Assembly (NCBI GenBank): GCA_031082125.1
Contig: JAVHLM010000016.1
Location: 1 to 64,000, forward strand
Direction of reading: 5' to 3'
Source of the DNA: Candidatus Eremiobacterota bacterium
GTDB lineage: Bacteria; Vulcanimicrobiota; CADAWZ01; Ess09-12
DNA length: 64,000 nucleotides
A program made the translations under genes and the position numbers. Under the pieces are notes generated by a model. The model was given only the letters and a program-made list of their open reading frames with translations, searched no databases and was not told the origin of the DNA. Position 1 is the first letter of the stretch, and every line of letters begins with the position of its first letter. Below are positions 5,449 through 62,386 of this stretch, in pieces.

Positions 5449-6144
5449 CTAGGAAAGCGAGAAGCGGAACCCCACACCGGGCTCGGTGAGAATATACCGC
5501 GGCACCGCGGGATGGGGCTCGATTTTCTTGCGCAGGTTGCTTATATGGACGCGGAGCGTCTGGATGTCCTCGTACTCCGGTCCCCACACCTGGGCAAGAA
5601 CCATCTTGGAGGTGACGACACAGTCGGCATTCTGGGCAAGGTAGGCAAGAATGTCAAACTCGATGGGGGTGAGGGACATCTCGGTGCCACCGCTTCTCAC
5701 CTTGCGGCGGGGAATATCAATCTCAAGCTCTCCCACAGTGATCACCGGCACAGGGGTGATCCTCAGATAGGAGCGCCTGAGGAGGGCTCTCACCCTCGCG
5801 AGGAGCTCCCCTGCGGAGAAGGGCTTGGTGATATAATCGTCGGCGCCGGTGTCAAGGGCTGCAATCTTGTCCGTATCGGCCCCCCGTACGCTCAGTATGA
5901 GGATGGGCCCGGTGAACCACGTCCTGAGCTCGCGGCACACTTCAAGACCTCCCATTCCCGGCATGGACATGTCAAGTATTACAAGGTCGGGCACCGCATC
6001 AATAGCGAGGTCGAGGGCCTCTTCGCCCTTGGAGGCCACGATGACCTCGTAGGATCGTGAGGAAAGCATCGATCTGAGGGCGCGGCGGATCTGCTCCTCA
6101 TCGTCTACGATAAGAATTTTCACTTTTTTCTCAGTAGTGCTCAT
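5449..6144 (-). CDS. kdpE: KdpE-type response regulator (OmpR family)
   Basis: 231 residues from ATG 6144, chosen because AGGAAGGAG precedes it; a longer frame exists upstream but overlaps the kinase gene more. The receiver domain (about 8-120) has the acidic pair DD at 14-15, phospho-acceptor D58 in LVILDMSMPG, and the KPF switch Lys. A C-terminal winged-helix DNA-binding domain follows, with the usual RRKVRSGG and LTPIEFDIL signatures. The start lies 14 bases inside the end of the kinase gene, so the two are translationally coupled. The output is probably potassium transport, as kup follows and its promoter has a TTTATA-containing direct repeat. Confidence 0.9.
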   Translation of the reverse strand: MSTTEKKVKILIVDDEEQIRRALRSMLSSRSYEVIVASKGEEALDLAIDAVPDLVILDMSMPGMGGLEVCRELRTWFTGPILILSVRGADTDKIAALDTGADDYITKPFSAGELLARVRALLRRSYLRITPVPVITVGELEIDIPRRKVRSGGTEMSLTPIEFDILAYLAQNADCVVTSKMVLAQVWGPEYEDIQTLRVHISNLRKKIEPHPAVPRYILTEPGVGFRFSLS

Positions 6145-7735
6145 GAGACTCCTTCCTGAGGGGGAGGGTGATGACGAACTTTGCCCCATGGGGCTTTACG
6201 GCCTCAAGGGCAATCGTTCCCCCGTGAAAACGGACTATCTCCTTCGTGACGGCAAGTCCCAGCCCCGTTCCTGATGATACTCCCTTTGATGAGGAGCCCC
6301 GGTAGAACTTCTCAAAGACAAGGCTCCGTTCCTCGGGCGGGATCCCCGGCCCCGCGTCTTCAACCCACAGGACCAGTTCGCCATTCCCTGTCTTTGCCCC
6401 TATGGTGACAGGGGAGCTCTCGGGGCTGTAGGCGAGGGCATTCTCCACGAGATTCTGTATTCCTCTCGCCCACTGGACAAAATCCACCTCTATGAGGGGA
6501 AGATTCTCCTCAAGGGCGAAAAGGATTCTTCCCTTCTTTTTCTCCGGGATGTTGGCAAGAACGGAGCCCAGGATCTCCCCGAGCTCATAAGGCTCTTTCC
6601 GCGGGATCCATGAGGCATCCTCAAGGCGGGAGAGATCGACCAGGGAGCCGATGCTCCTGTTGAGGCGCTCAAGATCGGACTTGACGGTCTGCAGCTCATC
6701 ACGGACCTGCAGGGAATCCCATCTGGTATCGCCCTCAAGCATGCTGGTCACCGTGGCATTTGCAGAGGCAAGAGGTGTTTTCAGCTCGTGGGAAACCGAT
6801 GAGATGAGTGTTGATTTGAGACGGTCAGTCTCGCGGAGAGCATCAGCCTGGATAGAGATGTGCTGGAGCCTCTTTCGCTCAATAAACACTGCCGCCTGGT
6901 AGGCAATTGCCATAAGGAGGCGGATTTCCGGGAGGGAATGAGGCTTCCCGTCGCTTCGCTCGCCCACATAGAGCATTCCGGCGTGCTGCGTAGTCGTGAG
7001 GAGGGGAAGAAAGAGGTCCTGGGGCCGGGTTATCCTGGAGGGATCGGAGAGCTCGCTCAATGAGGGAAAGCCTGAGGACTTTGATTCCAGATAGGCTGAT
7101 TCGGCTCTCCTGAAAAGCGTTTCCCTGGTTTCTCCGGCGAGAGCGGGAATGGAAAGCACCTCGCGGACCATGCCCTTCTCGTCGAGAAGATAGAGTGCCA
7201 CCGCCCTGGCGAAAGTAATTTCAGACACCTCTTTGATAAGCACTTCCGCCATCTCCTCGATGGATATCTCCGATACGATACGGGCGCTGAAGCGGTTCAG
7301 AAGGGCTGTCTCCTTCTCCCTGGAAAGGGCGTGGCTCTCCCTTTCCCTCAGCCTTCCCGTCTGGAGCCCCATCAATATCCCCACGGTAAGAAATACAATA
7401 AGGGAGAGCCAGTCCTTGGGGTCGGTGACAATAAGGGTATGGTAGGGCGGGAGAAAAAAATAGTTCCATGCAAAGAACGAGAGGACTGCCACGAGAAGGG
7501 CGGGTTTATAGCCTGAAAGGGCAGCGACGAACACGACGATGAGCAGGTAGAGAAGGGCCCACTGCTCCTTTCCGAAATAATCCTTTCCCGGATAGAACAG
7601 CGCCGTTGCCGCTATCACGGAGAAGACCGCAAGGAGGTAGCCATATCTTGTGGAGAGAGTCCTGGTGGTTCTCATGGCATGCCCTTTCACAAAGTTCCAG
7701 GGGAGCTCTCCTTTAAGACTACGCGGGAGGGCCAT
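6131..7735 (-). CDS. KdpD-like sensor histidine kinase lacking the KdpD N-terminal domain
   Basis: 534 residues from the first ATG; a start at 7675 (MRTTRTLST) is equally possible. Four membrane helices of the DUF4118 type occupy roughly residues 30-120, followed by a GAF-like domain, a HisKA domain with the H-box SVSHELKTPLAS, and a HATPase domain with DAGPGIP and GTGLGLAVTK. This is the membrane and kinase half of KdpD, which is about 890 residues in E. coli. The cytoplasmic KdpD and Usp domains that bind ATP or cyclic-di-AMP in other species are absent. It phosphorylates the coupled regulator downstream. Kdp transporter genes are not in the window. Confidence 0.88.
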   Translation of the reverse strand: MALPRSLKGELPWNFVKGHAMRTTRTLSTRYGYLLAVFSVIAATALFYPGKDYFGKEQWALLYLLIVVFVAALSGYKPALLVAVLSFFAWNYFFLPPYHTLIVTDPKDWLSLIVFLTVGILMGLQTGRLRERESHALSREKETALLNRFSARIVSEISIEEMAEVLIKEVSEITFARAVALYLLDEKGMVREVLSIPALAGETRETLFRRAESAYLESKSSGFPSLSELSDPSRITRPQDLFLPLLTTTQHAGMLYVGERSDGKPHSLPEIRLLMAIAYQAAVFIERKRLQHISIQADALRETDRLKSTLISSVSHELKTPLASANATVTSMLEGDTRWDSLQVRDELQTVKSDLERLNRSIGSLVDLSRLEDASWIPRKEPYELGEILGSVLANIPEKKKGRILFALEENLPLIEVDFVQWARGIQNLVENALAYSPESSPVTIGAKTGNGELVLWVEDAGPGIPPEERSLVFEKFYRGSSSKGVSSGTGLGLAVTKEIVRFHGGTIALEAVKPHGAKFVITLPLRKESHEHY

Positions 7736-7818
7736 AATTTCCTGTATCGGGAACCCCGGGTTTTCTCAGGTCATGGAAGAGCAGGGAGGCGATATTCAGG
7801 AAAAACACTCTTAACGGA

Positions 7819-7858
7819 ATCTTTATCCGGGTGAGAGCGAAATTTACAGGTTCTTTAT
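7819..7858 (+). promoter_or_regulatory. Two TCTTTAT half-sites upstream of the kdpD-like gene
   Basis: TCTTTAT occurs at 7820-7826 (as ATCTTTATCC) and 7852-7858 (as TCTTTATAG), 32 bases apart, or three helical turns. The core matches the exact repeat in the kup promoter. The position, between the kinase gene and the divergent gene at 7936, would suit autoregulation. The match is short and could be chance. Confidence 0.25.
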
Positions 7859-7935
7859 AGACAAGGTGCTATCATCAAAGTGAAAGTATTGCTGCAAGGG
7901 ACTGCTTGTATTCAGCATGAAAGGAAGAGCACTCC

Positions 7936-8217
7936 ATGCTTCTTGACCCTGTGAAGGAAGGCCTTGAAGAGCACTCTGCCGAGGAAGATGCCTTCCCCCC
8001 TGTGATATATCCCAGAGAGCCTTATGGAAAGATTGATGAGAAAACGTGGAAGATGAGAAGGCTCAAGATAATGCTGCTTGGCGTCCTGCTTGCCGTGTTC
8101 ACAGGAGTTCTTGCCACCTCGGGCCCCAGTTTCTCCTACCCGGGATGGCCTCTCTGCTACATGGGGCTCCTGGCTCTGCTCATGTGCCTCTTAGCCCTTT
8201 TTATTGTCGCCACATAA
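7936..8217 (+). CDS. Small membrane protein of unknown function
   Basis: 93 residues. An acidic N-terminal 40 residues is followed by a basic patch (KMRRLK) and two hydrophobic segments, about 45-63 and 72-92, separated by a short Gly/Pro/Ser-rich loop. The topology is probably two transmembrane helices with the N-terminus inside. GGAAG lies upstream at suitable spacing. No family is recognised. It is divergent from the KdpD-type kinase gene and is the first of a series of plus-strand genes. Confidence 0.65.
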   Translation: MLLDPVKEGLEEHSAEEDAFPPVIYPREPYGKIDEKTWKMRRLKIMLLGVLLAVFTGVLATSGPSFSYPGWPLCYMGLLALLMCLLALFIVAT

Positions 8218-8335
8218 GGGTTCTATCCTGGTCTCTCCCCCGCTCCCCCCCAAGAAGTGCTAATTTTTTCCCGAAAAAAGGGCTGAGGGCAGGAGCATAG
8301 AAATATTTAGAAACTATAAGGGGAAGGCCTGTTCT

Positions 8336-8659
8336 ATGGAGATACGCTGGGGCATCGAAGACGATCACAAGGGAGAGCTTCTCAGCAGGGATACGGTCCG
8401 CATTGCCGGAGAAGCCCATCCCCTCCCTCCATCCCCTGAAAAGGCTCCGGAAAAAACCTCTTTCGCTGAAGAGACGGGTGATCTCAGCAGTGAGCTTCTC
8501 CGCCTGAAGCGCCTTCTGGAAGAGAGGGATGAGAAGATAGCCCATCTGGAGAGACACATAGAGGAGATGCAGTCCCACCGCTCGCTCCTGAAGGGCGAGC
8601 TGGAAAGGCTGAAGATGGATATTGAACAGGCAAAGAAAAAAGGATGGTGGAAACGCTAG
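8336..8659 (+). CDS. Coiled-coil protein of unknown function
   Basis: 107 residues. The first 45 are charged and Pro-rich. From about residue 48 to the end runs a heptad-patterned helix (LLRLKRLLEERDEKIAHLER and on), very likely a coiled coil, ending in a basic KKKGWWKR tail that could touch membrane or nucleic acid. GGGGAAGG precedes the ATG. It lies 15 bases before an exported-protein gene. No family is recognised. Confidence 0.65.
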   Translation: MEIRWGIEDDHKGELLSRDTVRIAGEAHPLPPSPEKAPEKTSFAEETGDLSSELLRLKRLLEERDEKIAHLERHIEEMQSHRSLLKGELERLKMDIEQAKKKGWWKR

Positions 8660-50097: not shown

Positions 50098-52164
50098 TCA
50101 GAACGTTATCTTGTATTCCATCATGGCCTGGTTGCCGCTCCAGTTTGAACGGGCCACGGCATTGTTGGAAAGAGAGAAGAGACGGTACGATGCCCTTATG
50201 TAGGAATCCTGCCCCAGACTGTAGCTGGCTCCCAGGGAGGGAATGTCCTGGCGGAAGTCTGAGTTTATGATCCCGTAGTTACCCTTGAGAGAGAATACGG
50301 TGTAGCTTGCAAACACAGAGAATTTGTTGGTGAAGGGATAGCTCAGGCCGCCGGAGTAAAAATTCTCGCCGATATTGATGGTGTCAAGCGGGAATGCGCT
50401 AGAACGGGAGATGGTGTAGTTTGAATAGTTGATAAAGGCGGAAAGCTTCGTAGGAAAGGTATGAGATATGCCGATACCCCAGCTGCCTATGGTCCCCAGC
50501 TCGCTTCCCCCGCCCTGCAGCGTGGAGAATATGGGCTCTACATAGCCTATGCTCTGCACATTCGCAGGGGTGCAGGCTCTTACCTGCTGCAGGCTGCTCC
50601 AGTTCGCCGAGAGCATCGTGTCGGGCCACTTGTAGCTCCCCGTGAAGCTCAGCCCCTGCCTGTTGCTCGGGTATTTCAGGTAATCGTGTAACTGCCAGTA
50701 ATCAGTGTAGTAATTGCCGTACGGGAGCACTGTCGGAATGTTGGGAGGCACCTGGTATCTCAGCAGGAAGGGATCAAAGGCTGCAGACACCGAGGAATAA
50801 TAGAGATCGAGTGCGAGCTTCTTCTGGAAGTAGCCCGAAAAGCCCGCTCTCAGCAGGTCGCCTCTCGCCGTGGCATTGAAGTTTGTTTTCGACGTGTCGG
50901 GATTATATTCTGTCGCGGCGTATTCGGCCACGAACTTCACCTCTTTTGAGAGGTCAACATTGGCGCTCGCTCCGGCGGTATTCTGGGCCTGGGGGCCCAC
51001 AAAGCTTCTCAGGGAGTTTGTTCTCGCGTCAAGCCATTGCCTGCGGAGCGGTATGGGGATGATTCCCGCTCCCTGGATTGTGCCGAAAGAGGACATCTCG
51101 TTGACGGTGCGCATGTAGTTGAACGCGATGCGGGCCTTGTCCCAGTTGAGCCCCACATTTCCCACACCCATCCATGTATTGTAATTAAAGACGCCTGAAG
51201 AGTCCTGGGGGACCGTGGCAAAGGCCGCCTCGTAAGAGAGGAGGCGCCCTTTCCTGTAAGAGCTCACTTTTGCCCCGTAGAAGGGAAGGGTATCGGGCCC
51301 ATGGATGTTGGGGTTCTTGGGGCCCGCCAGGACGCTCCTGTCAATGTACTCCGGGGTGAATGAACCGCAGATCACCTTTGTTTCCGTGGGCTTGTGAACC
51401 ATCCAGAGCCGGTCAATGGTGGTCCTGCTCCAGGGAATGTTCAGCAGCGACTGGGTGTACCATTGGGAAGGGTTGGTGCCTGCGGCGAGGTAAGGGTTCG
51501 AAAGGTAAGGGGGAACGATTCCCCAGTAGTTGTTCACATTGGGATCGCCCAGGTTCGTAAAGGAGGCAAGCTCCACTCCCGCATTGATTTCCGGTGCAAT
51601 CTTTGCATCAATGCCCAGCTTTGCAAGTGCCGTCATCCCTGATCCCGACGTGAGAAGACGCCCGGAGCTCCAGTCAACGCCCGGTACTCTGATCGTGCCG
51701 ATAAAGGGGATGTCGCCACCCACGAACTGGCTGACACCGGAAGCCTCGAAGCTCCCGTAAAATCTCACCCTCTCGAGCTCTGTCACGCGCTTGTTGAGCT
51801 TCGAAGTATCTTCCTCGAGGTTGGTTACTCTCACTCCATAGGCCTGGAGCTCATCAAGGTATTCCATGACGAGCCTTCTTGTTTCCTGAAGCTCTGCCTT
51901 CGTGGCGAAAGTGGCGTGCTCCTGGTCATTCTTTGCGAGAAAACGGGCGATGACCATTGCCATCTCATAGCGCGTGCAGGCCCTGTCCCCCTTGAAAGTG
52001 CCGTCAGGGTAGCCTTCAACGATCCCTTTCGCAGCGAGGTTCGCCACTGCATCGTTAGCCCAGTGGGTATCAGGCACATCACCGAAGAGAGGTGCCCCGT
52101 GGCATGCTGAATTGAAACCTCCCCATATGACTAGTATCAATGTGATTATTGCTATTTTTCGCAC
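50098..52164 (-). CDS. SLH-domain outer-membrane porin
   Basis: 688 residues from GTG 52164, chosen for GGGGAGG upstream and because the signal peptide VRKIAIITLILVIWGG then begins the protein. After cleavage comes one SLH domain (DVPDTHWANDAVANLAAKGI, then GYPDGTF), a coiled coil (about 90-150), and about 530 residues of beta-strand-like sequence ending MMEYKITF. The SLH domain binds peptidoglycan-linked polymer and the barrel sits in the outer membrane, as in OmpM/Slp porins. The GTG start and terminal Phe support a real barrel. It is a strong sign of a diderm host. Confidence 0.9.
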   Translation of the reverse strand: MRKIAIITLILVIWGGFNSACHGAPLFGDVPDTHWANDAVANLAAKGIVEGYPDGTFKGDRACTRYEMAMVIARFLAKNDQEHATFATKAELQETRRLVMEYLDELQAYGVRVTNLEEDTSKLNKRVTELERVRFYGSFEASGVSQFVGGDIPFIGTIRVPGVDWSSGRLLTSGSGMTALAKLGIDAKIAPEINAGVELASFTNLGDPNVNNYWGIVPPYLSNPYLAAGTNPSQWYTQSLLNIPWSRTTIDRLWMVHKPTETKVICGSFTPEYIDRSVLAGPKNPNIHGPDTLPFYGAKVSSYRKGRLLSYEAAFATVPQDSSGVFNYNTWMGVGNVGLNWDKARIAFNYMRTVNEMSSFGTIQGAGIIPIPLRRQWLDARTNSLRSFVGPQAQNTAGASANVDLSKEVKFVAEYAATEYNPDTSKTNFNATARGDLLRAGFSGYFQKKLALDLYYSSVSAAFDPFLLRYQVPPNIPTVLPYGNYYTDYWQLHDYLKYPSNRQGLSFTGSYKWPDTMLSANWSSLQQVRACTPANVQSIGYVEPIFSTLQGGGSELGTIGSWGIGISHTFPTKLSAFINYSNYTISRSSAFPLDTINIGENFYSGGLSYPFTNKFSVFASYTVFSLKGNYGIINSDFRQDIPSLGASYSLGQDSYIRASYRLFSLSNNAVARSNWSGNQAMMEYKITF

Positions 52165-52258
52165 TGTTGCCTGCCTCCCCTTCGTGTCACTCGATAGCAG
52201 CAGAAAATCCCATAAAGATTCTTTGCCGGAGGGAAAACCCCTTTTTCCCCACAAAAAT

Positions 52259-53538: not shown

Positions 53539-54879
53539 TTATGCCGGCTGGCTTTCAGGCGGTGCAAGGGTGTTGATTATCTCAAGGGGATCAAGAACGC
53601 CCTTGCCCTGGGTATTTTCGTCAATCTTGGGATCCTTGAGCTTGTCGGCAGAGCCCATGGCGAGGGTCTTCAGCTCTTCGGGCGTGATATCGGGCTTTGC
53701 CTGCACGGCAAGGGCCATCACTCCTGCGGCAAAGGGAGTTGCCATTGAGGTGCCGGACATGGTCACATAACCTTCGCTGGTGGCGTCGGCTGCAGTGATC
53801 TTGACCCCCGGCGTCACGATGTCGGGCTTTACGAGCTTGTCGTATTTCGTGGGGCCGCGGCTTGAGAAATAGGCGATACCGTCATCTTCTCTTTCTACGG
53901 TGCCCTTGTCGTCAAGTGCGCCCACGGTGATGACATGCTCTGCATTGGCGGGAGTGCCGATGGTTTCTTTCCCGGGCCCTGAGTTGCCTGCGGCTACCAC
54001 CGTGATGATTCCTGCTTCAACGGCCTTTTCGACGGCCTGGGCAACGGGATCCTTCTTGGCGGACTGGGAAACGGGCCCGCCAAGGGACATGCTGATCACG
54101 TTGATTTTATACTTGTCCTTGTTTTCTACAGCCCACTGGATGCCCTTGATGACATCGGTGAAGCTTCCTGAGCCGTTTCCATCGAGAACCTTGACGCCCA
54201 CAAGCTTGGCATCGGGTGCGGCACCTTTGAATTTGCCATTTTCCGATGCCTGGCCGGTGCCTGCGGCAATACCGGAACAGTGGGTGCCATGGCCCTGGTC
54301 ATCGTATGCCTCGGTTTTTCCCGCCACCATGTCCTGGAAGCCGATAATCTTTTCCTTGAGGTCGGGATGGGGTGCGATGCCGGTGTCAATGACGCAGATT
54401 ACCACGTCCTTGCCGGTGAAGCCTCTCTCCCACACCTTGTCAAGATTCATGGTCTTTGTCGCCACGTCCATAAGGGCGCCCACTTCGCCCGGCTTTTCGA
54501 TGATGGGATCCGGTATGGTGATTCTCCCGTCAAGGAAGACGCTCACGTCACCGGTGATTTTACTGAGCTCGGGGAGGACGCCGAGAGAATCGGGCGCGAG
54601 CTCCACGGAGAAAGCGTTGATGAGGGGAAGATCTGCCTTTATCTTGTTCTGGGGATTCTGTTCGACAATGGCTTTCTTTATCTTGTCAAGGGAGGCTTTG
54701 TCACCGGACTCGATGATAAGCTCTATTTTTTCCTTCCCCTGGAGCCTGGTGAGATCAAGCTGATCGAGGGGATCAGATGATGCTTTCTCCCCTTTCTCCT
54801 TGAGCGGTGCCTGGGGTGCAGAGCCTGAAGAGGCGGCGTTCTTTATGAAATCTGCGTTGCCGGGTCCAATTCTATCCAT
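53539..54879 (-). CDS. Subtilisin-family serine protease
   Basis: 446 residues from ATG 54879 (AGGAGGACG upstream; an in-frame extension to 54945 has no ribosome site). An inhibitor-like N-terminal propeptide (about 50-120) is followed by the S8 catalytic domain: Asp165 in VIDTGIAPHPD, His197 in GHGTHCSGIAAG, oxyanion Asn in AAGNSGPG, and Ser378 in GTSMATPFAAG. There is no recognisable signal peptide, so it may be intracellular or exported by a non-classical route. A strong promoter and a strong terminator flank it. Confidence 0.92.
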   Translation of the reverse strand: MDRIGPGNADFIKNAASSGSAPQAPLKEKGEKASSDPLDQLDLTRLQGKEKIELIIESGDKASLDKIKKAIVEQNPQNKIKADLPLINAFSVELAPDSLGVLPELSKITGDVSVFLDGRITIPDPIIEKPGEVGALMDVATKTMNLDKVWERGFTGKDVVICVIDTGIAPHPDLKEKIIGFQDMVAGKTEAYDDQGHGTHCSGIAAGTGQASENGKFKGAAPDAKLVGVKVLDGNGSGSFTDVIKGIQWAVENKDKYKINVISMSLGGPVSQSAKKDPVAQAVEKAVEAGIITVVAAGNSGPGKETIGTPANAEHVITVGALDDKGTVEREDDGIAYFSSRGPTKYDKLVKPDIVTPGVKITAADATSEGYVTMSGTSMATPFAAGVMALAVQAKPDITPEELKTLAMGSADKLKDPKIDENTQGKGVLDPLEIINTLAPPESQPA

Positions 54880-54916
54880 ACATCGTCCTCCTGTGGATTT
54901 GTCTTCATGCGCGTTT

Positions 54917-54945
54917 ATTATATCAGATTTCGCCTGGCGAGGCAA
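54917..54945 (-). promoter_or_regulatory. Promoter of the subtilase gene
   Basis: On the minus strand TTGCCT (54940-54945) and TATAAT (54917-54922) are exactly 17 bases apart, and TGA precedes the -10 as an extended element. The -10 lies about 40 bases before ATG 54879. This is one of the best promoters in the window. Confidence 0.7.
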
Positions 54946-55090: not shown

Positions 55091-55705
55091 TTGAGGAGAA
55101 AACGGTACAGAAGATTATGCCTGGCTGTCCTGCGCGGCATGAGGGCCCCTTTGTTTCTGCTCTTTGCGATGCAGTGCGCCGTGCTTGTGATAGCCGTCGT
55201 ATGGGGCCTGTGCCGTCGCGTCTTCTGGTGGAACTCCCTTGTTCCCTCTCTGTCACTGCTGTGGGGAGTGCTCCTGGGATTTGCCCTGGCGCTTCTCAAC
55301 CTTCTGCTCTACACGGGAGGGAGGAGAGTCAAAAGCCTCCATATTGAGTGGATTTTTGAGAACCTCTACTTCCCTTTGTTCGGTAGCTCTGGCTTTGCCG
55401 GGATCCTCGCCATTGCGGCTCTCTCAGGCTTCTGTGAAGAGGCCCTTTTCAGGGGCGTGCTCCAGCAGGAGTGGGGTATCGTGGCGGCGAGCGCCTGCTT
55501 CGGAGCGCTCCACATGGGCCACCGCAGGCTCATCTTCGCGGGGATATGGACAGCCCTGCTTGGCGGACTGCTGGGATATTCCTATAGTATGACAGGAAAT
55601 CTCCTCGTTCCTATGGCTGCCCATGGGATCAGCAACCTGGCGGGGCTTCTTTACGTGAGGTATTGCTACAGGCCGTCCTCTGCCTCATCGGCTGAGGGCG
55701 ATTGA
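55091..55705 (+). CDS. CPBP-family intramembrane protease
   Basis: 204 residues from TTG 55091, decided by GAGGAG eight bases upstream. About five to six membrane helices. The CPBP motifs are complete: GFCEEALFRGVLQQE (EExxxR), FGALHMGHR and PMAAHGISNLAG. It should be an active intramembrane protease, unlike the altered relative at 25065. It overlaps the convergent cyclic-nucleotide-binding gene by 21 bases. Divergent from the subtilase gene, which may or may not be functionally linked. Confidence 0.85.
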   Translation: MRRKRYRRLCLAVLRGMRAPLFLLFAMQCAVLVIAVVWGLCRRVFWWNSLVPSLSLLWGVLLGFALALLNLLLYTGGRRVKSLHIEWIFENLYFPLFGSSGFAGILAIAALSGFCEEALFRGVLQQEWGIVAASACFGALHMGHRRLIFAGIWTALLGGLLGYSYSMTGNLLVPMAAHGISNLAGLLYVRYCYRPSSASSAEGD

Positions 55706-56194
55706 GAAGGCCGTGGTGATTTTGAGGAGATCATTCTCCGTCTTCTTAAGCCTCCCGCAGATCTCCTCGGCAATGTTTCTTACCAGGAGATAGCCGAGGC
55801 GGAAATCACTCTCGCAAATCCGCTCAAAATCCTGCCTTTCAATGACCAGGAACCTGCAGTCAGTGAGGGCGGTCACCGTTGCCGTCCTGGTGGCCGTAGG
55901 GTCCACAAGGGCAATCTCGCCGAAGAAACAATGGTATTCGCTGCAGAGAGTGTTGAGAGACTTGTCCTTGTCGGCAAAGGTGTTCTTTCCTGTTTTCAGG
56001 GTGAGCGTATGGGATACTTCCACTCTTCCCTCGACGAGGATATACATCTCATGGCCCGGAGTGTTCTCCTCCAGGATGGTCTCGCCCTTTTTCGCCTCCC
56101 GCTCCCTGAGCACCGAGGCAATGACGCGGAGCTGCCCGTCGGACACTTCGCGGAAGAGCCGGTAATTCCTGAGAATGTCAATTTTGCTTCTCAC
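55685..56194 (-). CDS. Stand-alone cyclic-nucleotide-binding domain protein
   Basis: 169 residues. The domain spans about 15-130, with the phosphate-binding cassette FGEIALVDPTATRTATV (Gly92, Glu93, Arg103) that in active domains holds the cyclic nucleotide phosphate. There is no DNA-binding helix-turn-helix as in CRP and no enzymatic domain. Its ATG overlaps the stop of the RCK potassium-channel gene by four bases. In known CNG channels the same domain is fused to the channel, so this may be a separate gating subunit. Confidence 0.87.
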   Translation of the reverse strand: MRSKIDILRNYRLFREVSDGQLRVIASVLREREAKKGETILEENTPGHEMYILVEGRVEVSHTLTLKTGKNTFADKDKSLNTLCSEYHCFFGEIALVDPTATRTATVTALTDCRFLVIERQDFERICESDFRLGYLLVRNIAEEICGRLKKTENDLLKITTAFSIALSR

Positions 56195-57459
56195 CTGGGT
56201 TTTTCCTTGTCGGTCTGGGAATATATCACTACGGCAAAGTCGTTTTCCCTGATCTTGTAATCGTCAGGAGGGTTGATCATGACCTCCACCTGATCGTCGG
56301 AGGCGCCAAGGTCTGTGCCGGCCTCCTCAAACTTCCTCTTGATGAACAGATCAATGGCAGAGAGATCGTCGGTGAGAAGATCGCCTATGCGCATCCCTTT
56401 CGACACGGAGATTATCCCGAAAAGAATGGCCCCGAGGTCGTCACGGACGTATTCGAAGGTCTGCCTGAATTTCTGCCCGATGAATCTCTGGGGAATCTCG
56501 ATCTTGAGGATCTGATGCTTCTGATCAAGGCTCAAAAGCCCTCCCATCACCGAGAGAATGCCGGGGGAGAGAGCTGAGTTCGCGATAAAGAAGCTTGCGT
56601 ACTGCCCCCTGATCACTATCTCATCGGCACGGGCCCTTCTCAGATGCGCCTCGTTCTCGCGGTCTATGAGCTCCGCCGTGACTCTCACCTTCTCCTGGAT
56701 ATGCTTTATTGCAAGGGTTGCCAGGATGGCCCTTTCATCAGCCTTGGCGCGGTCCTGCCTGCTGGATGTATCTGAGAGGATGATGGCCGAGTGGGCTTCA
56801 GGGATGTTGGCTCTCTCAAGGACACTCTCATTCACAAAGTCCCCCTTGATGAAGGAGATATCCAGGTCCTCACGGAAGCGGTATTTTATCTCGTTTATCT
56901 TCTCCTCTTCAAGATCGTTGATGAGGACGACGGTCTTGGGAGCCTCCTTCGACTGCTTGATGGCAAGAAGCACCTCTGCGGCGTTTTCGTTCCACCCGCA
57001 CATCACCAGATGGTTTACCTGACTGACGCTTTCCAAGCCCTTCTCCTCCCTGATTTTTCTCTCCACAAGGACCGACGCGATGATGGCGGTAATGAGGGAC
57101 ATTACCACAATTCCCGCAAACATTACAAATATGCCGACGGTGCGGCCTCCAAGTGACTTGGGGGCGATATCGCCGTAGCCCACCGTGCAGAGGGTGACAC
57201 AGGACCACCACAGCGAGCTGCCCATTCTTTCAACAAGCGTAGTTCCATACACCGTGGGGTCTTTGGCAGGCATGATCTCAAAGAAATAAAACCCCAGGGC
57301 GCCTATGGCAAGAATTACCAGGCAGATGAGCAGAAGCCTGTGGACCTTTTCCCGCCTGAGAGCCATTGCCAGCTGGCGGAGCGCCGCAAGGGCTTTTGTC
57401 CTTCGGAGTTCCTTCCTGTTCCGTGTGTCTGTTCGCTGCGGCCCCCCCGGCGGGTTCAT
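56191..57459 (-). CDS. Two-helix potassium channel with RCK (TrkA-N) domain
   Basis: 422 residues. A basic N-terminal 40 residues precedes membrane helix 1 (41-62), a pore loop with the K+ filter TVGYGD (92-97), and helix 2 (about 108-130). A cytoplasmic RCK-N Rossmann fold begins NHLVMCGWNENAAEV and includes FIKGDFVNESVLERA. The RCK-C region ends the protein. This is the MthK/Kch architecture of ligand-gated potassium channels. Its ATG lies three bases after the stop of the 632-residue orphan gene, and a cyclic-nucleotide-binding gene overlaps its end. Confidence 0.93.
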   Translation of the reverse strand: MNPPGGPQRTDTRNRKELRRTKALAALRQLAMALRREKVHRLLLICLVILAIGALGFYFFEIMPAKDPTVYGTTLVERMGSSLWWSCVTLCTVGYGDIAPKSLGGRTVGIFVMFAGIVVMSLITAIIASVLVERKIREEKGLESVSQVNHLVMCGWNENAAEVLLAIKQSKEAPKTVVLINDLEEEKINEIKYRFREDLDISFIKGDFVNESVLERANIPEAHSAIILSDTSSRQDRAKADERAILATLAIKHIQEKVRVTAELIDRENEAHLRRARADEIVIRGQYASFFIANSALSPGILSVMGGLLSLDQKHQILKIEIPQRFIGQKFRQTFEYVRDDLGAILFGIISVSKGMRIGDLLTDDLSAIDLFIKRKFEEAGTDLGASDDQVEVMINPPDDYKIRENDFAVVIYSQTDKEKPR

Positions 57460-57462
57460 GGC

Positions 57463-59361
57463 TCAGCGCGGAGCCCCGAGATAGAGCGTTTCCGCGAGAT
57501 CCACAAGCATGCTCTCCTTGTCTTGCAGGCTTTTTCCTGTTTTTTCAAGAAAGTGCAGCATTATCCTCTGCGCATAATGCCGTGAGTCCTCGCCTGATGA
57601 GCGTGCAGGGAGCCCCCCGGGTGTTGCCTGCGGCACCTGCTGGAGGGCCGCTCCAATTCTCAGGATAAGCTCGAGAAACCTGTCCTTCTCCCAGGAGGCG
57701 CACTCTTTCAACGCGAGTGCTGCAGGAAGTTTCGAAAAAACAAGGTCATCGGAGGCTCCGGCATCTTTCGCTGCCTTAAGAAGGGCCGCCAGATCGGGGG
57801 AGAGCGCTTCTGAGGCGAGTTTCCCTCCCTGGCGCTCATACCAGTCGCCTATAGCCTTCTGCACCTCTTGCTGCAGAGCCCCGCCGGCATTGAACAGGGC
57901 CGAGAGCTCTTCAAGGACAAAGAGCTTTCTCCCGGGAAGGGCATTTTTAATGAGGGCCATGAGGTCTGCCAGTTTTTCCCTGAACTCCTGGACAGAGATC
58001 TCGTCACGGTAATCAAATTCCGTCAGGTCCAGCAACTGCGGCAGCCGGACCCACAGAATCTCCCTTGCGTTCTTTCTCGTCTTCTTCCGGCTGAGGAGGT
58101 CAATGAATGCGGCAGGCTTCCCGCCGTCGTTTTCCAGGATATCCCTCACCAGGGGCGGCAGGGCTGAAGCCCATTCGGCAAGTGAAGAGAAGGCTGCCTC
58201 TGCCGAGGAGCTCACCTCCTCCCCGGGGGCGGACTCCCTCACCAGGGCGACGAGATCCTTCAGGAGCGCCATTTCAGCCGAAGAGGCATGCTCATAGGTG
58301 ATCTCTTTGTTCTCCGGGTTTTTCAGCAGATCGATGATGCGGGAGGGTGTAATCTCGACCTCTTTCCTGCTCCCTCCTGAGACCTCGCAGAGCGTGAGGT
58401 TCTCCTGGTGAGCCCTTATGAAGCACCCGATGAGGAGCAGGAAATTGTGGAAAGAGAGGCCGAAAGGCGAAGAGAGGAGCGTAGTATAGAGGCTCACGAG
58501 GTGTGACTGCTTCCTTGTGCCCTTCCCCACGAAGGTGTCAGTGAGGAGTGCCCAGTACTCCGTGAGAGGAGAATCGGGGGGGAGCGTCTTTTCTATCTCA
58601 TACCGCTGGTAGGCCCCGTAATCGACGACCTGTTCGGACACCCTGTTCTTGTGGAGGAACTCCCTGAGGAGCCTGTTCGCCTTGTTGCCGCCGCTTTTCT
58701 GAAAAACGAGAGGCCTTCTGAAATCAAGAAGCATTGAGAGGGCCTTCGGAACGATCTTGTTTTTTTCCGAAGGCGAGAGGCGCTGGGGGAAAGCGATCAT
58801 CTTGGGGAAAAGCCTTGAGAGGACAGAACTGTAGAACTTGTTCTTCCCCTTTTCGCCCCGGGGGAATATCTCGGCGCCTTTCCAGTACCAGCTCATTTCC
58901 TCAAGGGTGAGATAGCGCCTGATCTCCTTCTCAAAGGAGGCAAGCATGCCCACCTTCATTGACTCATCGGCGCCGAGCTCCTCCATGGCATTGAGCTCCT
59001 TGATGAGGTCCTCAAACTCCGCCGGCTTGTGGGGAAGGCCAATGAGAATCTCGCTGTTTTTCCAGAGCTCGTCGCTGAGCTGTTCTTTCAGGTCCTCTAT
59101 CTCCTTTTCATCAAAGGTGATGAGGGCCAATACATCCAGGAACGGTGTATTTGGATAGCCTCCATGGGGCCGCTGCACAATTCTCTCAATTTCCGCCCTG
59201 AGCCCTTCCTTTTCAAAAAAGTGGGGCTTTATAAAAAATGACATGCGGTATTTTCGGGAGAAAAGCTTGGGAGAGAATTTCCTTAAAGGGTAATACTGGG
59301 CCACGATCTCCGAGGAACTTGAGGGTCTTTTCCCCCCCGAGGGAGCCTTGGTGCGCTTCAT
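57463..59361 (-). CDS. Large soluble protein of unknown function in the potassium-channel operon
   Basis: 632 residues, mostly alpha-helical, no membrane segment or signal peptide, and no P-loop, protease or nuclease motif that I can see. The N-terminal 50 residues are basic with Tyr/Phe (YYPLRKFSPKLFSRKY). The protein is rich in Leu/Glu/Lys. I do not recognise the family. GAGGAAG precedes the ATG. It lies 19 bases after a GAF-HD-GYP gene and three before the potassium channel. Its position suggests it belongs to one signalling unit with them. Confidence 0.8.
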   Translation of the reverse strand: MKRTKAPSGGKRPSSSSEIVAQYYPLRKFSPKLFSRKYRMSFFIKPHFFEKEGLRAEIERIVQRPHGGYPNTPFLDVLALITFDEKEIEDLKEQLSDELWKNSEILIGLPHKPAEFEDLIKELNAMEELGADESMKVGMLASFEKEIRRYLTLEEMSWYWKGAEIFPRGEKGKNKFYSSVLSRLFPKMIAFPQRLSPSEKNKIVPKALSMLLDFRRPLVFQKSGGNKANRLLREFLHKNRVSEQVVDYGAYQRYEIEKTLPPDSPLTEYWALLTDTFVGKGTRKQSHLVSLYTTLLSSPFGLSFHNFLLLIGCFIRAHQENLTLCEVSGGSRKEVEITPSRIIDLLKNPENKEITYEHASSAEMALLKDLVALVRESAPGEEVSSSAEAAFSSLAEWASALPPLVRDILENDGGKPAAFIDLLSRKKTRKNAREILWVRLPQLLDLTEFDYRDEISVQEFREKLADLMALIKNALPGRKLFVLEELSALFNAGGALQQEVQKAIGDWYERQGGKLASEALSPDLAALLKAAKDAGASDDLVFSKLPAALALKECASWEKDRFLELILRIGAALQQVPQATPGGLPARSSGEDSRHYAQRIMLHFLEKTGKSLQDKESMLVDLAETLYLGAPR

Positions 59362-59380
59362 AGGAATCTTCCTCTTCTCT

Positions 59381-60475
59381 TCAGTCTGTGGAGTTTCTCT
59401 GCAGAACCCTCATAAAAGCTTCAACTATGACCGGATCAAACTGGATGCCGTTGTATTTTTTCAGCTCAGCGATGGCAACCTCCCTGGGCAGCTTTTTCCT
59501 GTAAGGCCTGTCGCTGCGCATCGCATCGTAAGCGTCTGCAACGCCAAGTATCCTCGCGAAGAGGGGGATATCCTCTCCCTTGAGCTTGTTGGGATAGCCG
59601 TTTCCATCGTAACGCTCCTGGTGGTAAAGGATCCCGTCCTTGACCTTCTGTGAGAGATCGATTGGCTCGACGATTGCCTTCCCCTGTATGGTGTGCTTTT
59701 CCATGATCTCTCTCTCTTCAGGGGTGAAGGGTCCCGGCTTCTTGAGGATCGTGTCGGGCACCCCAATCTTGCCTACGTCATGGAGGATGCTCGATATCTC
59801 GATTTCATTGAGATCATGTTTGGAGAGGTGGAGTTCGTTGGCAATCTCCAGGGAATAGCGGCAGACCCTCTCCACGTGGCCCCTTGTATAGGTGTCACGG
59901 GCCTCAATGGCATTTGCCAGCGCTTTTACGGCGTTCTTGAGGTTTCCATAAAGGCGCGCGTTCTCAACAGCAGTGGCGGCATGGTATGATATGGCAGAGA
60001 GAAGCTGGAGATCGCCCTTCTTGAATACACCCGTCTTCACCCTGTTGTCCACATAGATAACTCCGATTACTCTCTCCTTGTTAATCATGGGAATGCAGAG
60101 TATTGAGCGGATTGAGTGAAGAGACACGCTCCCGAAGGAGTCGAACCTCGGGTCGTCCATGGCGTTTGAGCTCAGGATGGGCTTTTTCTCCTTGACTACT
60201 TTCTGGATGATGTTGCTCGACACCTTGAAGTCTTCGCTCTTTATCGTATGCTTTTCAATATTGCGCGCCACCTTCACCACAAGCTGGTTTTCCTTTTCCA
60301 GAAGCATGATGAAGCCTCTCTCGGCTTTCATGAGTTCAATTACCTTATCCATTACGGCGTTGAGAACCTCGTCTATTTCCAGCGATGAATTAAAGGTTCT
60401 CTCTACTTCAAGAAGCGTGGCAAGATGTATGCTGTCAAGCTGATCGCCTTCACCCTGGGGTGATATAGAATCCAT
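59381..60475 (-). CDS. GAF-HD-GYP phosphodiesterase
   Basis: 364 residues. A GAF domain (about 17-165) is followed by an HD-GYP domain (about 178-364) with HD at 232-233 (SILHDVGKIG), the YHQERYDGNGYP segment (284-295) and the ADAYDAMRSDRPYR segment. The GYP signature is intact; HQE for HHE is a common variant. The family hydrolyses cyclic-di-GMP or related cyclic dinucleotides. The GAF domain probably binds a small ligand. AGGAGGAAA precedes the ATG. First gene of the operon with the 632-residue orphan, the K+ channel and the cyclic-nucleotide-binding protein. Confidence 0.9.
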   Translation of the reverse strand: MDSISPQGEGDQLDSIHLATLLEVERTFNSSLEIDEVLNAVMDKVIELMKAERGFIMLLEKENQLVVKVARNIEKHTIKSEDFKVSSNIIQKVVKEKKPILSSNAMDDPRFDSFGSVSLHSIRSILCIPMINKERVIGVIYVDNRVKTGVFKKGDLQLLSAISYHAATAVENARLYGNLKNAVKALANAIEARDTYTRGHVERVCRYSLEIANELHLSKHDLNEIEISSILHDVGKIGVPDTILKKPGPFTPEEREIMEKHTIQGKAIVEPIDLSQKVKDGILYHQERYDGNGYPNKLKGEDIPLFARILGVADAYDAMRSDRPYRKKLPREVAIAELKKYNGIQFDPVIVEAFMRVLQRNSTD

Positions 60476-60621: not shown

Positions 60622-62244
60622 TCATTCACCGAGGAGAGCCGTGATTTCGCTCTTGAGCATGGTATAGGCCCCGGCGCATCTGCCGTCACTGCCAAGCTTG
60701 AATGCAAAGGGCTTTTGTTTCTTGCTGTAGGTCTGATACGTGGTAAGAAAGGCTGTTTCGTCGCAGATATCAAGCGAGATCACGGTGCTCAGATGAATAT
60801 GGGCCTTTTCGGCAAGGCTTTTTCTCGCGCAGAGCCTGTTTGATGATGAATAGCTCCTGCATATCTGAGGTCGTGCCTCATAGATTTCACAAAGAAAGAC
60901 GCCTTCAGATTTTTGCCCGAGGAAAATGCAGTCCCGCACTTTTCCCTCACGGACTGTTGCTTTCAGCAGAGCGTTTTCCCTGTTCCAGGAGAATTTCCCC
61001 GGCTCCATGAAACGCTCACGGACCTCCCCCATGGTAAGGCCCTTGTGGTCGGCAATCCTCTCGATATCGGGAGGGGTGATTTCGACGTGAAATATGCGGC
61101 AGCATTCGCCGCATAGGTTGCAGTCGGGCTCGAGGTGGCAAAGCGACTCGAGGTTCGTCCGGCTCACTGCGGCAAGGAGAGATGAGATGAATTCGCGCAC
61201 GGCGAGAAGAAGAGAGAGGCGGCTCTTATAGCTTATCGATATCACCGGGTGGGAGCCGTGTGCTTTCTCCGTGATGATGAGGTTTTCCGGGAAGAGCCTT
61301 ATCAGGTGGTCATCGCGGGATGCTCCGGGACAGTCTCTGCATTCTGCCGTCAGCGAGGTGTCTTCCAAGGGGCGGGGATCCAGGCGACTCTTCTTCATTG
61401 ATTCCGCTTTCTTGAGGAGTGCCGCAAGCGTATCCTGGCGCTTCGGGTTATCTGTTTCAATACAGTCCAGATCATTGATGAGTCCCTCGAGCTCATCATA
61501 GCGTTTCATGAGCTTTTCCTTCCCATACTGTTGAGCAAAATCCCGCCCGAGCTCCTCTATAAGGAGCTGAATGGAGCAGATGATGCGGTCATAGCGATTC
61601 ACTTCAGATTCATTGATGCTTCCAATATATTCCCTTGCTTTCCCGAGGAGGGGGGCTATGGGTCCCTCTCTTGTATCCTTGGCTATCGCTCTCCCGTCGA
61701 TGAGGGTTACTGTGGTCTCATCACCGCTGCAGGCTATCATCTCGATGAGGGGGATAAGGAATTCAGGTCTCTTGTCACAGAGTGCCATGGTGGAGGGAAT
61801 GGACTCGCATGAAAAGGGGCGCACAGGGTAGATGGCGCACCGGTGCCTTGAGCCGGCGGTGGTTTCCAGAAAGGCGCAGGCCCCCCCCTTTTTTTTCACC
61901 AGTCCGTCACAGGCATTCCATGTGACGGCAGGAAGAGTGAAAGTCTCCCGGAATTCAGTTTCAGGCATTGCATCAAAAAAGAGCGAGATGCGTTGGATAT
62001 CGTGGGAGCTGAGAAGAATCTCTCTCTCCCTGCAGCACTTTCCGCATCGGCCGCAGACATCAAAGAACAGCTCGCCGTCAAAGAGGGTGACCGCCTCCTG
62101 TGCCAGAGCCTGTGCCATGTTCCTCAGGTGCTTATGTTCATTGTACCGGAACCGGATCCTGGAGATTTCGCCTCCGTCCCCCTCCGATTTCACATAGAGC
62201 TCCGTGGAATGGAATTCAAGTGTGGCGGTATCATGAAGATGCAT
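60622..62244 (-). CDS. Duplicated YkgJ-type cysteine-cluster protein
   Basis: 540 residues from ATG 62244 (GAGGGGAAA upstream; a longer frame starts at 62310). Two copies of the YkgJ/UPF0153 domain are present, one in each half: CGRCGKCCREREILLSSHDI and CNLCGECCRIFHVEITPPDI, each followed by PxxFxxxxxG and further cysteines. The family has a CxxCxxCC cluster that binds zinc or iron-sulphur. Function of the family is poorly known. A linker of about 150 residues separates the copies. Divergent from the CcdA-like gene. Confidence 0.82.
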   Translation of the reverse strand: MHLHDTATLEFHSTELYVKSEGDGGEISRIRFRYNEHKHLRNMAQALAQEAVTLFDGELFFDVCGRCGKCCREREILLSSHDIQRISLFFDAMPETEFRETFTLPAVTWNACDGLVKKKGGACAFLETTAGSRHRCAIYPVRPFSCESIPSTMALCDKRPEFLIPLIEMIACSGDETTVTLIDGRAIAKDTREGPIAPLLGKAREYIGSINESEVNRYDRIICSIQLLIEELGRDFAQQYGKEKLMKRYDELEGLINDLDCIETDNPKRQDTLAALLKKAESMKKSRLDPRPLEDTSLTAECRDCPGASRDDHLIRLFPENLIITEKAHGSHPVISISYKSRLSLLLAVREFISSLLAAVSRTNLESLCHLEPDCNLCGECCRIFHVEITPPDIERIADHKGLTMGEVRERFMEPGKFSWNRENALLKATVREGKVRDCIFLGQKSEGVFLCEIYEARPQICRSYSSSNRLCARKSLAEKAHIHLSTVISLDICDETAFLTTYQTYSKKQKPFAFKLGSDGRCAGAYTMLKSEITALLGE

Positions 62245-62386
62245 GGTATATTTCCCCTCACCCACATTCTCCTTTTGATGACGATTCCCTTTTACACCCA
62301 TTCCTGCCAAAGGTCCTGCCGGCGGGAGAGCTCTGTAGGAATTGTAATGGGAAAAGGAGAATCAAGCTCTCGGTGATGATACAGTG

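Follow-up and report, generated by a model that had tools for sequence, protein, structure and literature searches.

Does a potassium channel gene that runs directly into the gene of a cyclic-nucleotide-binding (CNB) protein encode a channel with a detachable sensor, and do the two genes in front of it belong to the same machine? All four genes lie on the minus strand of the window, by which we mean the whole stretch of 64,000 nucleotides that was analysed (contig C16 of a 7.4-Mb genome in 69 contigs). The original prediction read them as one split, nucleotide-gated potassium system. The gene structure that it described, four genes with gaps of 19, 3 and -4 bases in the order HD-GYP protein, 632-aa protein, channel and CNB protein, matches the open reading frames and their junctions exactly. 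Its domain assignments (GAF-HD-GYP, an RCK channel with TVGYGD and a separate CNB) also agree with Pfam and the translations: the channel carries Ion_trans_2 and Slo-like RCK/TrkA_N domains as well as the TVGYGD motif, and the CNB protein matches cNMP_binding with 67.5 bits vs a cut-off of 27.5. The best explanation of the locus, however, appears to be two linked pairs of genes rather than one four-part machine.

Table 1. Genes of the locus and the segments specific to the channel-CNB pair, in window coordinates
Feature	Position	Strand	Description
GAF-HD-GYP protein	59381..60475	minus	364 aa, ATG; Pfam HD_5 3e-43, GAF_2 1e-18
ATPase-less SspC/BrxC-type C-terminal arm homologue (earlier 'orphan')	57463..59361	minus	632 aa, ATG; PADLOC SspC 1.5e-15
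2TM K+ channel with C-terminal RCK, MthK/Slo type	56191..57459	minus	422 aa, ATG; Ion_trans_2 2e-14, Slo-like_RCK 1.5e-13
Stand-alone CNB protein	55685..56194	minus	169 aa, GTG; Pfam cNMP_binding 1e-18
RCK C-lobe stretch, ~38 residues, with pair-specific insert KGMRIGDLLTDDLSAIDLFIKRKFEEAGTDLGASDD	56275..56389 (approximate)	minus	alignment of 13 channels
CNB segment TLTLKTGKNTFADKDKSLN, residues 63-81	55952..56008	minus	16/19 identical to G005
CNB C-terminal tail NDLLKITTAFSIALSR, residues 154-169	55688..55735	minus	13/16 identical to G005

The GTG start of the CNB gene overlaps the channel stop codon by 4 bases, which suggests translational coupling of the two. At its other end, the CNB gene is overlapped by 21 bases by a convergent downstream neighbour, a CAAX-type protease on the plus strand (55091-55705). 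Rfam gave no match within the 64-kb window. In a scan of the stretch, sigma-70-like and terminator-like sites occurred at shuffled levels, and none of the terminator-like sites was found on the minus strand. Other genes of the window include a subtilase a short way downstream of the operon (53539-54945), a large protein with a TTG start (50098-52254) that by sequence alone looks like an SLH domain with a beta-barrel porin, and a protein of 562 aa that has two metal-chelating CxxCxxCC domains (60622-62310).

Comparison with known channels may provide some clues regarding the distal pair. The 2TM-RCK channels MthK and GsuK share with the present protein a 2TM pore with TVGYGD and an RCK ring in one chain, and MthK is its best PDB match by sequence. 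Unlike them, it carries an insert of ~35 residues in the RCK C-lobe, has a separate CNB partner gene and shows an isoleucine at MthK E212; in the sequence alignment, the MthK Ca2+ site D184/E210/E212 corresponds to D, E and I. A single-sequence model of the channel reached a pLDDT of 40 and was set aside. MloK1 and SthK likewise combine a K+ pore with a CNB domain, and the CNB of MloK1 turns up as a fold match of the present CNB protein. However, their CNB sits in the pore chain behind a C-linker and they have no RCK, whereas here the CNB is another gene, the fused CNB is absent and the RCK occupies its place. Finally, KtrAB and TrkHA resemble the locus in placing a membrane pore under a separately encoded cytosolic nucleotide-binding ring, but their separate part is the RCK protein, while here the RCK is fused and the CNB is separate. 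Judged by these comparisons, the locus would work like a ligand-gated RCK channel and would fall outside the cyclic-nucleotide-gated family, in which the CNB is part of the pore chain.

To our knowledge, no RCK channel has a CNB subunit encoded by a gene of its own; the cyclic-nucleotide-gated channels known to us all carry their sensor covalently linked to the pore. The part of the literature that our search covered describes no CNB subunit of this separate kind on an RCK channel, and none of the ten Pfam-annotated homologues checked was a fused CNB-RCK channel. The same genome carries a second split RCK channel (G000:C39, L071), in which the gene of a 570-aa voltage-sensor-type RCK channel and a separate 256-aa RCK-only gene overlap by 22 bases (frames at 6043-6813 and 6792-8504).

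The order of channel and CNB is kept in one further genome, G005 (JAMDEM010000101.1, locus L094), which belongs to the same phylum but to another family. This contig is labelled Bacillota by NCBI; the same DNA is present in a genome that GTDB assigns to the phylum of the window. Between the window and G005, identity is 52% over the channel C-terminus and 48% over the CNB protein, and the G005 CNB starts just after the channel stop codon. Across the phylum, the G005 protein is the only close relative of the CNB that was found (1.4e-46 vs 1.8e-16 for the next best match). The G005 channel reading frame looks damaged near the contig start. Searches of viral contigs with the CNB pair gave no match, and plasmids searched with the channel gave generic channels only, none of them covering 80% of the query.

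How much weight can this linkage bear? The genome encodes 35 CNB domains, several of them in short stand-alone frames, and the chance that some channel adjoins a CNB gene in it is roughly 5% (assuming ~6,500 genes). The evidence beyond chance therefore comes from the conservation in G005 and not from the window locus by itself. This conserved linkage is the strongest argument for regarding channel and CNB as a putative unit. Support for the pair is limited in that it consists of sequence comparison between two examples, one of which has its channel truncated at the contig edge.

The abundance of CNB domains is also in line with the main rival explanation, according to which the channel and the CNB are co-expressed but never touch: the CNB would be a stand-alone cAMP sensor for another target, and the pair would be kept for co-regulation. 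Six stand-alone Anaerolineae CNB proteins had no channel match beside them, which means that CNB proteins of the wider class are not tied to a channel. Moreover, the fold itself is generic. In an AlphaFold2 monomer model with an overall pLDDT of 79, the barrel of the CNB protein adopts the usual CNB fold, for which Foldseek returns CRP, PKA, PKG and MloK1 at 1e-11 to 1e-9.

Against this explanation stand the segments listed in Table 1, since paired inserts occur in both proteins where, and only where, the two genes are paired. Of the 13 aligned channels, 2 have the RCK C-lobe insert, namely those of the window and G005; the 11 others lack it. In the CNB proteins of these two genomes, residues 63-81 and 154-169 are identical at 29 of 35 positions vs 51 of 131 in the remainder (Fisher 2.7e-6), and a best-window permutation placed this clustering of conservation at 1 of 300. 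The loop and tail are absent from the Anaerolineae CNB proteins, whose segments differ. In the monomer model, the pLDDT falls below 50 at residues 65-77 and 164-169, and the last ~20 residues have a mean of 47-52. Segments that are highly conserved yet apparently unstructured in the protein alone resemble partner-binding segments. Together with the linkage in G005, these pair-specific segments in both proteins indicate that channel and CNB behave as a conserved unit. The predicted split nucleotide-gated system is partly supported, as a two-gene unit; the four-part package is not. We consider co-expression without contact rather unlikely.

The CNB protein itself appears equipped to bind a ligand. 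Its phosphate-binding cassette, FGEIALVDPTATRTA, keeps the Glu and the Arg, and the motif FGExxL...R[ST]A is kept in the CNBs of both the window and G005. A source of ligand exists as well, given that the genome encodes 11 class III cyclase domains.

The model that we prefer is built on the observed gene structure, domains, homology, conservation of the pair, inserts, CNB cassette and cyclases; its ligand, physical contact, gating direction and joint regulation are the parts that we infer. The distal pair would make a tetrameric 2TM-RCK K+ channel and, as a second translation product, a CNB subunit. The latter would bind cAMP or cGMP as its cyclic mononucleotide and would dock on the RCK gating ring through three segments: the RCK C-lobe insert, the TFADKDKSLN loop of the CNB and the C-terminal tail of the same protein. 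Binding of the ligand to the CNB would then shift the opening of the channel. We put the chances at about even that the locus encodes a K+ channel whose RCK ring carries a docked sensor for cyclic mononucleotides, the product of a gene of its own. The fuller version, in which a detachable sensor gates the channel through co-evolved docking inserts and the pore integrates an RCK ligand with cAMP or cGMP, is more tentative. If true, it would show how a pore can come under ligand control with no fusion of genes, and gating by docking could be tested in a reconstituted system.

Could the two upstream genes be part of the same system? According to the original prediction, the HD-GYP protein removes the ligand of the CNB, so that all four genes would make up a nucleotide-gated K+ system. 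The tandem arrangement with short gaps is consistent with this possibility. However, the four-gene order was found in no other genome, either among the 98 searched with the 632-aa protein, the channel and the CNB or among the up to 149 covered in other searches. The original prediction named absence of the order from all relatives as one refutation; this holds for the four-gene block but not for its channel-CNB half, which is kept in G005, where the contig starts inside the channel gene and the upstream half of the order cannot be scored. HD-GYP orthologues with 44-53% identity exist in about a dozen genomes, and their neighbours include the SspC/BrxC arm as well as a methyltransferase, LptF/G and others; none of the other genomes examined has a channel beside them. 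Outside the window, the HD-GYP gene lies directly upstream of an arm homologue in G028 only, where the next gene encodes a methyltransferase. In the genomes of family f12, it is followed by a related methyltransferase and the arm is missing. The G028 HD-GYP frame (L027 9198-10493) opens with a QueG-like fragment that runs into the GAF domain halfway, probably through an assembly join or a frameshift.

The chemistry also speaks against a role in ligand removal. HD-GYP enzymes cleave cyclic dinucleotides, whereas CNB domains of the present type bind cyclic mononucleotides, and ligand removal therefore does not fit. A few CRP-type CNB proteins do bind c-di-GMP, a point in favour of the four-gene reading; the 33 GGDEF domains of the genome, however, make a private pool of such a ligand unlikely. 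The nearest solved structure of the HD-GYP protein is PmGH (4mcw, E 4e-55), which has the same GAF-HD-GYP layout. The HD diad, the GYP and most metal ligands are kept. In place of PmGH Glu185 there is a Tyr, which predicts a two-metal site (PMC4159591), and the protein is probably of the Y/F, two-metal type. At the position of PmGH His277 there is a Gln: the motif reads HQExxDGxGYP (HQExxDGNGYP here) instead of HHExxDGxGYP, and the Gln is found throughout the clade. His277 binds metal in PmGH, and the H277A mutant is inactive (PMC4159591). Because of this Gln, catalytic activity seems possible but not assured. Taken with the differing substrate class and with relatives that are never beside a channel in the genomes examined, this Gln leaves the HD-GYP protein unsupported as the enzyme that removes the CNB ligand, and we regard the four-gene system as very improbable.

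Two linked pairs remain the better reading, and the proximal one would consist of the GAF-HD-GYP protein and the 632-aa protein, tied to the channel by presumed co-transcription only. The 632-aa protein had been called an orphan. It has indeed no Pfam or NCBIfam match, and no credible match was found in the PDB, searched with the protein alone and with a family profile, nor any match in a scan of a genome-contig collection. Nevertheless, it has clear homologues, and the name orphan is not appropriate. These occur in 11 of 98 related genomes; at E <= 1e-6, 136 of 148 genomes gave no match. The PADLOC SspC match covers residues 263-572. Thus the protein resembles the C-terminal part of the SspC and BrxC-PglY (DUF6079) AAA+ scaffold ATPases; unlike them, it has neither an AAA+ domain nor a Walker A motif, and their partners SspB, SspD and PglZ are not seen.

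The genome holds another copy, which is full-length (G000:C7, L032 7344-10799). It encodes 1151 aa with the Walker A GSSGTGKS and is called SspC by PADLOC at 2.7e-45. A profile of the short form matches the C-terminal ~600 residues of full-length forms, with E-values down to about 1e-78, and in the alignment the short form begins after their AAA+ part. Each of the nine full-length forms retrieved has Walker A, while the short forms lack the AAA+ domain. A full-length paralogue accompanies the short form in 9 of its 11 genomes, which is suggestive of a partnership between the two, in a co-occurrence where many of the positives belong to one family, f13. The arm of the window would thus probably partner the full-length AAA+ paralogue of its own genome. 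The tree of the arms does not resolve the short forms as a single origin, and the window's copy sits on a long branch.

What might such an arm do? In BrxC, a relative of SspC, the ATPase is followed by a winged helix and an alpha+beta domain, and then by more winged helices and a coiled coil; DNA binding has been proposed for these parts (PMC12839542). By homology, the whole locus might then be a defence-like DNA or stress-response operon, in which the arm senses DNA, the HD-GYP protein relays the signal and the channel with its CNB acts as membrane effector through potassium flux. The CNB protein weakly resembles the CNB domains of Pycsar effectors, which is also consistent with this possibility. 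However, PglZ was not found in the genome, no methyltransferase, SspB, SspD or PglZ was seen among the annotated neighbours at the locus, and the homologue neighbourhoods examined showed no typical BREX or Ssp partner. In addition, none of the other arm-bearing genomes has a channel gene next to the arm. In f13, an actin-family gene resembling FtsA/MreB/PilM comes next after the full-length AAA+ form (L152 9765-11027, L153 4644-5903, L154 4532-6968). Given this gene and the missing PglZ, filing the arm as BREX or Ssp defence is not warranted, and we regard a DNA- or stress-response operon as highly unlikely.

The ATPase-less BrxC/SspC arm is a second lead, worth pursuing because the BREX function of that arm is unsettled. 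RecG- and RsmD-like genes near the arm in three genomes were rejected as a signal, being housekeeping genes. The full-length SspC/BrxC-like AAA+ family (L031, L032, L033, L034 and L150-L154) is seen here outside BREX and Ssp contexts.
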